This document shows, one piece after another, positions 50,506-55,855 of a stretch of 64,000 nt of DNA (position 1 is its first letter; each line of letters opens with the position of its first letter). Where the stretch lies: the NCBI RefSeq assembly GCF_003049575.1, contig NZ_PYWI01000002.1:1-64000 (forward strand). The letters run 5' to 3'. A program made the translations under genes and the position numbers. Source of the DNA: Lysinibacillus parviboronicapiens. Its GTDB lineage: Bacteria; Bacillota; Bacilli; Bacillales_A; Planococcaceae. The notes below the pieces were generated by a model. It was not told where the DNA came from, ran no database searches, and worked only from the letters and a program-made list of their open reading frames with translations.

Positions 50506-52254
50506 ATGAAGTCACAGTTTACAGGGCGGCTTGAAGGATATTCTGTTGGTCTTTTTAAAAAAGATTTACTGTCAGGCATTATTGTCGGTATTGTTGCTAT
50601 CCCATTAGCAATGTCCTTCGCGATTGCGTCAGGTGTTAAACCTGAGTATGGAATTTATACCGCATGTATCGCAGGGATACTTATCTCGGTATTTGGAGGT
50701 TCGAAATATCAAATAGGGGGACCTACAGGCGCATTTGTCCCAATTCTGTTAGGTATCGTGCTCACTTATGGTTATGAAAATTTATTGATTGCCGGTTTGA
50801 TGGCTGGCATTATGTTATGTTTAATGGGGATTTTTAAGTTAGGCACGCTCATAAAATTTATCCCACGGCCTGTAACTATCGGATTCACAGCTGGTATTGC
50901 AGTAATTATTTTTACAGGTCAAATTGCTAATTTTCTAGGTCTAACAGGTATTAAACGACACGAGTATTTTATTGCGAATATAAAAGAACTTGTCATGCAT
51001 GTAGGCACGACAAATTATTATAGTATTTTAATAGCCATCATTAGTCTTGTAATAATTCTTGCAACACCAAAAATATTGCCAAAAGTACCAGGAGCTCTAG
51101 CTGGAATTGTTATTTCTACACTTATCGCAACATTGTTCTTCTCAGGACAAGTAGCGACAATTGCAACAGCCTATGGTGAAATTCCTAATACCTTACCAAA
51201 ATTTTCGATTCCTGAAATTACGTTCGAGCGTATTCAATTATTAATAGGACCTGCATTTGTCATTGCTATGCTTGGAGGGATTGAATCCCTATTATCGGCA
51301 GTCGTAGCGGATGGTATGACAAATAGTAAACATAATAGCAATCGGGAGCTTGTTGGACAAGGGATTGCTAATATTGTAACGCCTTTATTTGGAGGGATTC
51401 CTGCAACGGGTGCCATTGCTCGTACCGCTACCAATATTAAGACGGGTGCAGCTTCGCCGGTGTCAGGCATTATTCATGGGGTATTTGTGTTAGTGACACT
51501 ATTGTTATTAGCCCCTTATGCTTCTCATATTCCATTGGCAAGTATGGCGCCTGTTTTAATGGTCGTTGCTTGGAATATGAGTGAACAGCGGCATTTTGCA
51601 CATATTGTAAAATTGAAATCGGGAGATTCACTTGTTCTGCTTATTACATTTTTACTTACGGTTTTCACGAGTTTAACATTGGCTGTTGAAGTTGGTCTTG
51701 TTTTAGCGGTTGTATTATTTGCGAAGCGCATGAGTGAGAAGCTTGTAGTCTCGAAGGTTTTACCAGATCATTCTAAATCGAGTGGCAAGGTGCAACCGAA
51801 TGTGGTCAATCAAAAACATGATTGTCCGCAAGTTAGTATTTACACAATTGAAGGGCCATTATTTTTCGGTGCAGCACAAACTTTTGAGCAAACGATTTTA
51901 AATTCACTTCATTATCATCCAAAAGTTTTAATTTTACGAATGAGTAAAGTGCCCTTCATGGATTCTACAGGTGAATCTTATTTTAGCAATATAGTGGAAA
52001 GTTTCACAAATCGAGGTGGCACAGTGTTAATCACAGGTGTGCAAGCGGAATTAAAAGAGGCACTTCGGCGAAATGGCTTATATGAGAAAATTGGTGAAGA
52101 AAACTTCTATCCGCACACAGGAGATGCTATCAATAAAGCTCTAAGTTATTTGGATGAAACGCAATGTGTAGGGTGCAAGCATTTTGCGTTCCGTGAATGC
52201 ACAGAACTATCGAAACCAGGGAAACCGGGGTGCCTGGCACACGAAAAATTCTGA
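50506..52254 (+). CDS. SulP-family anion transporter with STAS domain
   Basis: A 582-aa membrane transporter for sulfate, bicarbonate or another anion. The N-terminal half has the SulP signature (DLLSGIIVGIVAIPLAMSFAIASGVKPEYGIYTACIAGILISVFGGS, GPTGAFVPIL) and about eleven hydrophobic segments. A STAS domain follows (SIYTIEGPLFFGAAQTFEQ, LRMSKVPFMDSTGE). The tail has CVGCKHFAFREC and then KPGCLAHEKF, the last part being encoded by the palindromic end of the adjacent RAYT element. It is 103 bases after the ArsR gene and likely co-regulated. Confidence 0.9.
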   Translation: MKSQFTGRLEGYSVGLFKKDLLSGIIVGIVAIPLAMSFAIASGVKPEYGIYTACIAGILISVFGGSKYQIGGPTGAFVPILLGIVLTYGYENLLIAGLMAGIMLCLMGIFKLGTLIKFIPRPVTIGFTAGIAVIIFTGQIANFLGLTGIKRHEYFIANIKELVMHVGTTNYYSILIAIISLVIILATPKILPKVPGALAGIVISTLIATLFFSGQVATIATAYGEIPNTLPKFSIPEITFERIQLLIGPAFVIAMLGGIESLLSAVVADGMTNSKHNSNRELVGQGIANIVTPLFGGIPATGAIARTATNIKTGAASPVSGIIHGVFVLVTLLLLAPYASHIPLASMAPVLMVVAWNMSEQRHFAHIVKLKSGDSLVLLITFLLTVFTSLTLAVEVGLVLAVVLFAKRMSEKLVVSKVLPDHSKSSGKVQPNVVNQKHDCPQVSIYTIEGPLFFGAAQTFEQTILNSLHYHPKVLILRMSKVPFMDSTGESYFSNIVESFTNRGGTVLITGVQAELKEALRRNGLYEKIGEENFYPHTGDAINKALSYLDETQCVGCKHFAFRECTELSKPGKPGCLAHEKF

Positions 52255-52259
52255 CAATT
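52229..52259 (+). repeat. Left inverted end of the RAYT element
   Basis: GGTGCCTGGCAC, then six bases, AATTCT, then ACAATT. The core GTGCC-T-GGCAC is palindromic. It matches the reverse complement of 53042-53075 in order and spacing, and supplies the last codons and stop of the SulP gene. Confidence 0.7.
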
Positions 52260-52268
52260 TACTACAAT

Positions 52269-52312
52269 TAAAAAAAGCTCCGTATGAGGAAAATCTCATC
52301 CGGAGTTTTTTG
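52269..52312. terminator. Bidirectional terminator between SulP and RAYT genes
   Basis: AAAAAAGCTCCGTATGAG / CTCATCCGGAGTTTTTT stem, T runs on both strands. It ends the SulP transcript and the converging transposase transcript. Confidence 0.85.
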
Positions 52313-52315
52313 TGT

Positions 52316-52879
52316 TCAGTGCATCAATTGCTCGTTTTGTTCTTCCTCACAATAATGGCAATAGGCCTGTGAGTTTTGGGGTAAAAAGGTTTTTAGTAAA
52401 GTTGTATCAAGAAAAGAGTGGTGCGAGGGAATATTGTACTTGTAGTGCTGAAAGGAACTGTATGGATAGTGTTCCATTTTTTCAACTATCGGCGTGTTTG
52501 TTGAGATGGGGTTGCGGTGAATGTAGCGACTTACGGTGAGCATGCCTATGGGGGAGGGAACAAGCTCTGCGAAATATCGACGCTCGTAAAGCTGACCAGT
52601 ATATTGATATTTCTGTTTGAAGTATTCACTGTAACGGCGGTTAATAATAGCCATAACTTTCCCTAACGGCACTTCAGGGGAACGTATAAGCAGATGATAG
52701 TGATTAGACATAATGCAATAAGCGACGATACTAAATGTATATTTTTGATGGGCATATTGCAGGACACGAAAAAAAGCTTGGTAATCAGCAGAGTTACTAA
52801 AAATAATTTGGCGATTATTACCACGCATCACGACATGATTGTAATGATATGGGGACCACTGACGCTTTTTTCTAGCCAT
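52316..52879 (-). CDS. REP-associated tyrosine transposase (RAYT, Y1_Tnp)
   Basis: A 187-aa single-domain protein of the IS200-like Y1 transposase superfamily. It shows the N-terminal YHVVMRGNN-type motif (YNHVVMRGNNRQIIF), the HUH metal site in AYCIMSNHYHLLI (His-Tyr-His) and the RAYT-type stretch KVMAIINRRYSEYFKQKY ... GQLYERRYFAELV ... YIHRNP. Catalytic Tyr is likely in the INRRYSEYF helix. Complete, with GGAGGG before the ATG. Such enzymes nick single-stranded DNA at hairpin ends. Confidence 0.88.
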   Translation of the reverse strand: MARKKRQWSPYHYNHVVMRGNNRQIIFSNSADYQAFFRVLQYAHQKYTFSIVAYCIMSNHYHLLIRSPEVPLGKVMAIINRRYSEYFKQKYQYTGQLYERRYFAELVPSPIGMLTVSRYIHRNPISTNTPIVEKMEHYPYSSFQHYKYNIPSHHSFLDTTLLKTFLPQNSQAYCHYCEEEQNEQLMH

Positions 52880-53041
52880 AAGACTTTCCCTCCTAAGTAG
52901 TTTTCTTTAGCATAAAAATGATGACCAGTCTCGTCAAATACACACATGCCTTAAAAATAACTAATATTTTCTTTTTGATGACAGAAAAACACTGATAATT
53001 TTGAAATCCCTATAAAAATAACCATGAAAAAATTTTTTTGC

Positions 53042-53075
53042 TAATTGTTTGAGAATTGTGTGGGTGCCAGGCACC
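53042..53075 (-). repeat. Right inverted end of the RAYT element
   Basis: On the minus strand: GGTGCCTGGCACC, five more bases, AATTCT, then ACAATT. The 13-bp palindrome GGTGCC-A-GGCACC is perfect. It mirrors the left end at 52229-52259. Confidence 0.7.
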
Positions 53076-53102: not shown

Positions 53103-53136
53103 GAACTTTCCATTAGAATAAATGCAATACATGTAA

Positions 53137-53372
53137 AGACAGTGATGAGGAATAGTAGATTTGTCGTTCTTTTTAGAGAGCTAGCGGGTGGTGGAAGCTA
53201 GCAAGAAAGCAAATTGAACTCGCCTGCTGAGTCTGCTCGCGTGATATCCACGTGCGCCGTTCCTTCCGCGTTAAGGAAGCTTGAGCCGAGTGTGATCACT
53301 AATTTGGGTGGTACCGCGGGAGAAACGAACTCTCTCGTCCCTTTCTAACAAAGGAAGGGGCGAGTTTTTTTA
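53137..53372 (+). ncRNA. T-box leader, tRNA-Leu sensing
   Basis: A full T-box riboswitch: Stem I from AGTGATGAGGAATAGTAG with specifier context TTGAACTCGCC (codon CTC, Leu), the T-box sequence GGGTGGTACCGCGGG at 53326-53340, and the terminator ACTCTCTCGTCCCTTTC / AAGGAAGGGGCGAGTTTTTTT. Uncharged tRNA-Leu stabilises the antiterminator and allows leuS expression. Confidence 0.95.
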
Positions 53373-53437: not shown

Positions 53438-55855
53438 GTGACTTTTATTCATCAACAAGTCGAAAAAAAATGGCAGCAATATTGGGCTGACAACAAAACG
53501 TTTAAAACAGAAAATGAAACGGACAAACCGAAATTTTATGCATTAGACATGTTCCCATATCCATCTGGCGCAGGTCTTCATGTAGGGCATCCAGAAGGTT
53601 ATACAGCAACAGATATCCTATCACGATTCAAGCGTATGCAAGGCTATAATGTTCTACACCCTATGGGTTGGGATGCATTTGGATTACCAGCAGAACAATA
53701 TGCACTAGATACAGGAAATGACCCAGCTGAATTTACTGCAAAAAATATTGCTACATTTAAGCGTCAAATCCAAGAATTAGGCTTTAGCTATGACTGGGAT
53801 CGAGAAATTAACACAACGGATCCTGAATACTACAAATGGACACAATGGATTTTCATTCAACTTTACAAAAAAGGTTTAGCGTATATAGATGAAGTGGCTG
53901 TAAACTGGTGCCCAGCATTAGGAACAGTACTTGCGAACGAAGAAGTCATTGATGGGAAATCAGAGCGCGGTGGTCACCCCGTAGAACGTCGTCCAATGAA
54001 GCAATGGATGCTAAAAATTACTGCTTATGCAGACCGCTTAATCGATGACTTAGAGGACGTAGACTGGCCAGAATCAATTAAAGATATGCAACGCAACTGG
54101 ATTGGTCGTTCAGAAGGGGCAGAAGTAACATTTGACATCGATGGGACAGACAAAAACTTTACAGTCTTCACAACTCGTCCAGACACATTATTCGGTGCCA
54201 CTTACGCAGTACTTGCACCAGAACATAAATTAGTAGCACAAATTACAACTGCTGACCAAAAAGAAGCGGTTGAAGTATATCTAGATAAAGTAAAATTAAA
54301 ATCTGACCTTGAACGTACAGATTTAGCGAAAGAAAAAACAGGTGTTTTCACTGGCGCTTATGCTGTAAACCCAGTAAACGGTCATAAAATGCCAATTTGG
54401 ATTGCGGACTATGTACTTGCTACTTATGGAACAGGTGCAATTATGGCGGTTCCTGCACATGATGAGCGTGACTATGAATTTGCCAAAGAATTTGGTTTAG
54501 ACATCAAAGCAGTGCTTGAAGGTGGAGACGTCGAAAATGAAGCATTCACTGGCGACGGTAAGCATATTAATTCTGGTTTCCTAGATGGTCTTGATAAAGT
54601 TGAGGCCATCGCCAAAGCAATCGAATGGTTAGAGAAAAAAGGTGTGGGTGAGAAGAAAATTTCTTATCGTCTGCGTGACTGGTTATTCTCTCGTCAGCGT
54701 TATTGGGGTGAGCCAATTCCAATGATTCATTGGGAAGATGGTACAACGACGCCAGTACCAGAATCAGAATTACCATTAATGCTACCGAAAACAGATAATA
54801 TTCGTCCTTCTGGTACAGGTGAATCACCACTGGCTAATATTACAGATTGGGTCAATGTTGTAGATCCTGAAACAGGCAAGAAGGGACGTCGCGAAACGAA
54901 TACAATGCCACAATGGGCAGGTTCAAGTTGGTACTTCCTGCGCTATATCGATCCGAACAATACGGAAGCAATTGCAGATCCAGAGTTACTAAAACGCTGG
55001 TTACCGGTTGATATATATATCGGTGGAGCGGAACATGCGGTACTGCATTTACTTTACGCACGCTTCTGGCATAAAGTTCTATACGATTTAGGCGTAGTAC
55101 ACACGAAAGAACCATTCCAAAAGCTATTCAACCAAGGGATGATTCTTGGAGAAGGTAACGAAAAAATGTCTAAATCAAAAGGCAATGTTGTGAACCCAGA
55201 TGAAATCATTGCCTCTCATGGTGCAGATACATTGCGTCTCTATGAAATGTTCATGGGTCCTCTTGAGGCTTCTGTTGCATGGTCGACGAATGGCTTAGAC
55301 GGTGCTCGTCGTTTCTTAGATCGCATTTGGCGTCTATTTGTCAATGAAGAAGAAGGTACGTTATCAGAGAAAATTCAAGTGTCAGAAGATAAGTCCCTTG
55401 AAAAATCATTCCACCAAACAGTGAAAAAAGTGACAGAAGACTATGAAGGTATTCGCTTTAATACGGCTATTTCACAAATGATGGTATTCATTAATGATTG
55501 CTATAAAGCTGATGTAGTGCCAACAGCTTACGCACAAGGCTTTGTGAAGATGCTTGCACCAATCGTGCCTCACGTTGCAGAAGAATTATGGCAATTGCTT
55601 GGACACGAAGGGTCAATTTCGTACGAAGAATGGCCAGCATATGATGAATCCAAATTAGTGGATGACGAAGTAGAAGTGGCTGTCCAAGTAGCAGGTAAAG
55701 TACGTGCGAAAATTATTGTCGCAAAAGATGCTTCCAAAGAAGATATTGAAAAGGTAGCATTAGCAGACGACAAAGTACAGGAATATATGGCGGGCAAAAC
55801 TTTAGTAAAAGTAATTGTGATTCCAGGTAAGCTTGTGAACATCGTTGTAAAATAA
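53438..55855 (+). CDS. leuS: Leucyl-tRNA synthetase
   Basis: An 805-aa class Ia synthetase. HIGH motif in [22 protein letters not shown] (about residue 41), editing domain around [20 protein letters not shown], and KMSKS in [21 protein letters not shown] start after AAGGAGG. Full length for Bacillales. Controlled by the T-box upstream. Confidence 0.99.

Follow-up and report, generated by a model that had tools for sequence, protein, structure and literature searches.

REP-associated tyrosine transposases (RAYTs), in which REP stands for repetitive extragenic palindrome, are described by Park 2021 (PMC8049555) as single-copy, vertically inherited genes that go with REPINs (REP doublets forming hairpins); this and all other statements on published systems refer to the available parts of the cited papers. 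In the literature covered, REP systems have been worked on at the bench in Gram-negative bacteria only, with the tag GTAG as their hallmark. Repeats of the GTAG superfamily occur in Proteobacteria, Cyanobacteria, Chloroflexi and the PVC group and those of the CGTC superfamily in five other phyla, and the available part of the same paper does not place Firmicutes among the hosts of either (Di Nocera 2013, PMC3733652). Canonical REPs have been assigned to transposase subclasses 2.2, 2.4, 2.5, 2.7 and 2.8, atypical ones to subclass 2.6 and class 3, and TIRYT genes fall mostly in subclass 2.1 (Quentin 2018, PMC6006769). For Bacillota, RepRanger 2025 (PMC12306157) tabulates three members, in an available text that does not use the word RAYT, and two Geobacillus genome papers give RayT gene numbers in tables only. 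No account of the repeats described below was found, either in the RAYT and REP literature on Firmicutes, Bacillus and Lysinibacillus or by querying with the letters of the palindrome, with subscription papers and supplements excluded from both searches. Here, we analysed a stretch of 64,000 nucleotides (nt), the window, from contig NZ_PYWI01000002.1 of Lysinibacillus parviboronicapiens, a soil bacterium related to Bacillus, in which a RAYT gene is framed by two inverted palindromes. This unit is very probably a REPtron, composed of one domesticated RAYT/TnpAREP transposase and its cognate REPs, and it belongs to a Gram-positive, family-wide set.

The locus resembles the REPtrons of Escherichia coli, Stenotrophomonas and Marinomonas (groups 2 and 3; Corneloup 2021, PMC8266576) in having one Y1 gene next to inverted REPs, dispersed copies linked to that gene, an asymmetric 5' tag on the hairpin and inward-facing pairs. 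Furthermore, profile comparison matches its protein to E. coli TnpAREP, for which a structure has been solved (4er8, E 1.1e-4). It differs from those REPtrons by the tag, which is AATTGTKTGN and not GTAG, by a 5-bp stem with a single central base, and by its Bacillota host. Like known REPINs (Bertels and Rainey 2011; Park 2021, PMC8049555), the paired copies consist of two inverted REPs that are dispersed as a unit and form one long hairpin, and the RAYT is likewise single-copy and vertically kept; known REPINs have highly diverse spacers, whereas here the unit is 45 bp with a near-perfect palindromic spacer. The repeats share with the GTAG and CGTC superfamilies (PMC3733652) the form of a short palindrome tagged at one end, but neither of those tags is present. 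A Y1 gene between inverted repeats is also found in TIRYT genes (PMC3733652). However, the protein described here has 187 amino acids (aa), matches Pfam Y1_Tnp only and lacks a C-terminal helix-turn-helix domain, and the flanking repeats do not contain GGGG[AT][CG]A[CG]; a TIRYT assignment was therefore rejected. We regard the unit as a genuine Bacillota variant of the known REPtron kind, whose tag is unusual and whose stems form a natural series of switches.

The transposase gene and its tagged repeat

The sequence-only reading had proposed a complete HUH/Y1 protein of the RAYT type, and this was borne out. A single open reading frame (ORF) encodes an intact transposase (Table 1), which matches Pfam Y1_Tnp with 58.6 bits (cut-off 23) and the NCBIfam model NF047646 (REP-associated tyrosine transposase) with 59.9 bits over model positions 4-146 of 146. 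In an alignment of 36 rows, H60-Y61-H62 and Y119-xxx-N123-P124 are invariant or nearly invariant; the protein has the HuH motif together with Y-xxx-NP, the class 2 Y1 signature (Quentin 2018, PMC6006769). The gene evolves under constraint, since its dN/dS is 0.09-0.17 in 8 pairs. The search flagged one stop in the matches of three congeners (G009, G020 and G026), which we take to be the natural end of the frame, because these frames read open in the DNA for 189, 187 and 187 aa. PADLOC gave no match to the gene, and a defence-system identity was rejected on this ground. A classical insertion sequence of the IS200/IS605 kind with inverted ends would share the enzyme superfamily and would fit the occurrence of empty sites, but it is hardly credible here: the 8 carriers in the genus have one gene copy each, all beside a gene that the sequence-only reading names sulP and that putatively encodes a SulP-type transporter, the Y-xxx-NP motif is that of class 2, and the ends are inverted and dispersed as short units. 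The single copy in the genome of L. parviboronicapiens also led us to reject a multi-copy element of that type.

The REPtron gene is framed by an inverted repeat with arms of 24 nt (52229-52252 and 53052-53075) that are 83% complementary and separated by 799 nt, so that the claim that the same palindrome recurs inverted on both sides holds. The left palindrome reads GGTGCCTGGCAC-ACGAAA-AATTCT-G-ACAATT on the plus strand and the right one GGTGCCTGGCAC-CCACAC-AATTCT-CAA-ACAATT on the minus strand. The match past the palindrome thus has the letters that the sequence-only reading gave, but AATTCT is not a fixed part, and GGTGCCTGGCAC-N6-AATTCT was ruled out as the repeat. The recurring part is ACAATT, which begins 4 nt past the palindrome and corresponds to AATTGTKTGN on the other strand. 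The motif is therefore replaced by the consensus, written tag-first, of AATTGTKTGN directly 5' of GTGCCWGGCAC, that is, a hairpin with a one-sided 5' tag. The stem has 5 bp with a single central base in the sequence, and the folded form has a 3-nt loop.

With up to one mismatch allowed, GTGCCWGGCAC has 3 matches in the window, two of them exact, a number reached by 0 of 100 shuffles. The genome (4.75 Mb) contains 18 exact sites and no site of the reversed pattern; with one mismatch allowed, the numbers are 54 and 10. A palindrome at chance frequency, which had been named as grounds for giving up the proposal, is ruled out by the genome count and the reversed control. The sequence context was sorted manually for 17 of the 18 copies: eight lie outside any ORF of at least 80 aa, four in the final 26 nt of an ORF, three within 42 nt of a possible start, one in an 85-aa ORF that is possibly spurious, and one inside a 217-aa ORF. 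This last copy (locus L029, positions 1501-1511; G000:C32:270911) is a tagged REP that leaves the reading frame open, and the ORF looks like a putative thiamine pyrophosphokinase gene. The many dispersed intergenic copies that had been predicted were thus found, with 18 in this genome and 18-148 in congeners with a RAYT, mostly intergenic or at gene ends.

The tag is attached to one side of the hairpin. For 13 of the 17 copies, an unbiased figure, AATTGT occurs no more than 16 nt away on one side, compared with 1.3% for random window positions. Of 68 distinct copies collected across the genus, 56 are tagged on one side only and 12 are untagged, a tally that is biased because some of these copies were retrieved with a pattern requiring the tag. 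The tag sits at a constant position: T stands at -3 in 56/56 copies and G at -2 in 98%, and -1 is free. On the 3' side of the hairpin only the first base is skewed, toward pyrimidine. Several copies in the genome have the tag doubled in tandem, among them the right REP of the window, which is canonical; the tag of the left REP is degenerate. The consensus matches neither GTAG nor CGTC and does not have GT[AG]G directly 5' of the hairpin, as in the GTAG superfamily. Single copies, such as the right REP of the window, do end their tag in GTGG, yet position -1 is free. The lone palindromes of three genomes without RAYT (L043, L047 and L049) have no tag and look like chance occurrences.

REP copies and REPINs within the genus

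The genus sample comprised 32 genomes, 8 with and 24 without RAYT. The carriers G000 (the genome of the window), G009, G013, G020, G026, G027, G028 and G029 have 18, 18, 44, 76, 148, 42, 20 and 37 copies, respectively. Genomes without RAYT have 0-1 copies in 23 of 24 cases, in agreement with the predicted absence of copies from strains that lack the gene; the exception is G005, an 86% complete genome with 7. At least 15 copies are thus present in 8/8 carriers and 0/24 non-carriers, with this threshold, like that of nine used below, set after the counts were known. The REPs flanking the gene recur at other places in the genome, and the gene has one match per carrier, at the same locus beside sulP. 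The link between gene and repeat is strong.

Comparison of the junction supports vertical descent. The empty site predicted between sulP and leuS was observed as direct adjacency in 16 of 22 loci without RAYT; in the other 6, leuS lies outside the 1.5 kb examined. Flanks without the gene, which would have spoken against the unit, occur once in the genus: G005 retains a solo palindrome at the same junction. In a SulP tree, G005 and the eight carriers together make up a single clade (support 99), and because G005 groups with the carriers, its palindrome fits gene loss. The simplest reading is one ancestral unit, lost once, leaving fading copies. Within this clade, inheritance of the gene is vertical and loss is possible, with fading REPs left behind.

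REPs also occur in pairs with their tags facing inward and a start-to-start spacing of 34 bp, which makes a REPIN of 45 bp, and these 45-bp units are dispersed as such. As single-stranded DNA, the REPIN folds with -26 kcal/mol (z -10.6) and is the only fold that stands out. The RAYT unit has the layout hairpin-tag ... tag-hairpin with the gene in the middle, and because a REPIN has this same layout, REPINs look like the two ends of the RAYT unit joined. At one orthologous site, the 45-bp REPIN is present in 8/8 loci with RAYT, five of which have a changed base in one hairpin, and in 0/22 of the loci without RAYT that were read, two further matching genomes having been left out of the reading. 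Ten of those 22 have 5-7 bp at the site, and in the other 12 an unrelated insertion occupies this point. No target duplication was seen in the compared loci.

Two further observations were made at this site. Among the orthologues (L231-L238), A and T interchange at the centre of both hairpins and of the spacer, as if palindromes or palindrome halves inverted in place. The insertion in the 12 genomes without RAYT (L239-L246, L251 and L258-L260; site orthologous to G000:C10:121969) mostly starts with ATATCAATTATGCC and contains its own AATTATGCCTTGGCATAATT-like palindrome, and it may be another repeat family.

By analogy with the TnpAREP model, the hairpin would form on single-stranded DNA and the enzyme would bind stem and tag, reading the 5' tag instead of a GTAG guide. 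Tyr119 would then cut, and REPINs would be copied or joined into new, mostly intergenic sites without target duplication. We infer on the same analogy that the RAYT moves the REPs. Alternatively, the system could be dead, the RAYT no longer moving REPs and the copies being fossils by descent. This is unlikely, though it deserves weight: the REPIN site is common to all 8 carriers, with one hairpin changed in 5, and the genome of the window has only 18 copies. The low dN/dS speaks against a dead system, as do G020 and G026, where 64 of the 76 and 135 of the 148 exact cores fit core plus ACAATT.

The same two genomes show further repeats near their REPs. In 10 of 30 REP loci (G026, 7/15; G020, 3/15; within L060-L089, for example L067 1500-1660 and L071 1510-1690), the REP has a large, imperfect palindrome containing CTCCTGCGGGA no more than 111 bp away, and in some cases equally oriented REPs stand at the two ends of this palindrome. 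It is absent from six other loci of the two genomes. In G026, some REPs recur at steps of about 204 bp (1715596-1716648).

Stem types and residue 77 across the family

RAYT homologs (E at most 1e-5) were found in 132/261 genomes of the family and 13/19 genera, including Sporosarcina, Ureibacillus, Planococcus and others, with up to four per genome. The RAYT and REP unit suggested from the window is therefore supported but not isolated; it is one of a family-wide set with several stem types. Stem types were assigned by eye: perfect palindromes in the same frame flank 47 of 90 loci, mostly GTGCC, GTGAC and GTACC and rarely GCACC or GTGTC, and the 43 unassigned loci have imperfect stems or no typeable stem. 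Three of the loci (L121, L127 and L140, from G232, G187 and G182) form a RAYT clade with a mismatch stem, 5' GTGAC and 3' GGCAC tag-first, which places it between types GTGCC and GTGAC. At L130 (G237), the region just upstream of the RAYT gene contains seven GTACCAGGTAC palindromes at an exact 34-bp step and in one orientation.

Counting the three main types, 51/261 genomes have at least nine copies of one stem type, and 48 of these 51 have a RAYT. The stem flanking a typed RAYT gene is the commonest of the three types genome-wide in 39 of 41 cases (L165, L179, L181, L182, L185 and L198 excluded), against a mean of 21 and a maximum of 31 in 20000 label shuffles, a test that overstates significance because the rows are related and the flank copies are included in the counts. 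G245 is nested in a GTACC clade (whole-clade branch 99), but its gene is flanked by GTGCC and its genome holds 55 GTGCC against 1 GTACC. This agreement bears on the possibility that the palindromes serve the host as binding or regulatory sites, or as terminators, and that a transposase gene landed between two of them. The four copies in the final 26 nt of a gene and the end of sulP, which the left copy supplies, would suit such sites. However, copies are nearly absent from congeners without the gene, and the stem type of the genome follows that of the gene side, G245 included, so that host sites are very improbable.

The stems change in a compensatory manner across the family (GTGCC, GTGAC and GTACC). 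In 29 lineage representatives, changes occur on both sides in three of the five stem pairs, with 14 cells of two-sided changes against 3.6 expected from shuffles. True stems pair at 97.9% and slid controls at 53% at most; the first figure is inflated because these rows were hand-picked from a search in which a GTNNC-like frame and pairing at no fewer than 4 of 5 positions were already required. Further pair types numbered 3, which was not above shuffles, as 491 of 500 were at least as high. The independent support for stem covariation is the genome-wide counts. Parsimony on trees of 87 of the 90 proteins (L184, of 124 aa, and L176 and L190, with an internal stop, were dropped) requires 4 changes for position 3 of the stem and 5 for position 4. 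Palindrome and protein change together, so that the pair is useful for learning how such enzymes choose DNA. The REP consensus supplied here covers Lysinibacillus and relatives, and the natural enzyme-substrate pairs make it possible to test by which residues the hairpin is selected and whether the tag serves as a guide.

A scan of residues over 50 rows, with L182 left out and L121, L127, L140 and L196 (imperfect stems) added, gave column 77 as the best associated with stem position 3 and the second best with position 4. Rows with R77 have A at stem position 3 in 8/8 cases and other rows in 1/42 (p 1.7e-8 as a plain count, without correction for the full set of columns and residues). Supported branches of the tree yield 3 independent pairs, of which 2 agree, 0 oppose and 1 does not differ (sign test p 0.5), and with so few independent events residue 77 was rejected as a proven specificity residue. 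L165, with a GCACC stem and M77, is the exception; L187 has R77 and an untypeable REP, and the RAYT of the window has A77. In the alignment to 4er8, which is weak and was counted by hand, residue 77 falls at R78, on the helix aligned to alpha-3 and four residues before K82, which in E. coli TnpAREP lies on the DNA-binding alpha-3 helix and contacts the bulged base (Corneloup 2021, PMC8266576). The same alignment places Y98, E99, A104, E105 and P108 opposite W94, Q95, E100, H101 and R104 of E. coli, which are discussed for the GTAG guide (Quentin 2018, PMC6006769); none of the five is kept, which fits a different tag. A tentative extension, which we consider possible but rather doubtful, is a REPtron branch with its own code, in which AATTGTKTGN takes the place of GTAG, residue 77 reads pairs 3 and 4, and stems switched repeatedly through mismatch-stem intermediates. 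The proposed code, which is a lead, would be Arg for A-T at pair 3 and mostly Ala, Gly or Ser otherwise. If true, this would provide a ready-made natural series for decoding a single-strand transposase.

Several results weigh against the REPtron assignment itself. The NF047646 score is below the NCBI curated cut-off of 80. Single hairpins fold no better than shuffles (z -0.3 to -0.9, 5 strands), and the compared REPIN is old and shared. Of the GTGCC palindromes beside RAYT genes, 12/48 match the 9-nt tag at 4 positions or fewer; these belong to genus g13, which has a longer palindrome in place of the tag, and to G047, and the genomes concerned hold 28-128 copies. Three of the 51 high-copy genomes (G174, G235 and G255) have no RAYT hit. 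The rule that flanking and genomic stems agree is broken by G216 (GTGCC flanks; 25 GTGCC and 34 GTGAC copies) and by the second gene of G139.

Features of the locus

The RAYT gene lies between the sulP gene and the T-box leader of leuS (Table 1). In the interval between sulP and the RAYT gene there is a hairpin flanked by A and T, and its letters suggest that it is likely a two-way terminator.

Table 1 Features of the RAYT locus, with positions in the window.
Feature	Position	Strand	Remarks
SulP-type transporter gene (presumed), neighbour	50506..52254	+	last codons and stop inside left REP
Left REP hairpin core GTGCCWGGCAC	52230..52240	-	tag-first on - strand; at sulP 3' end
Left REP tag side, degenerate	52241..52269	-	ACGAAAAATTCTGACAATTTACTACAATT on + strand; 7/9 tag positions match
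A/T-flanked hairpin	52270..52311	.	direct reading of letters
RAYT/TnpAREP-type Y1 transposase gene	52316..52879	-	187 aa, ATG start; H60-Y61-H62, Y119
Right REP 5' tag, tandem double	53043..53063	+	AATTGTTTGA-G-AATTGTGTGG; read directly, fits consensus
Right REP hairpin core GTGCCAGGCAC	53064..53074	+	inside 13-nt palindrome 53063-53075
T-box leader of leuS	53133..53345	+	Rfam RF00230, 109.4 bits
leuS gene, neighbour	53438-55855		ORF listing

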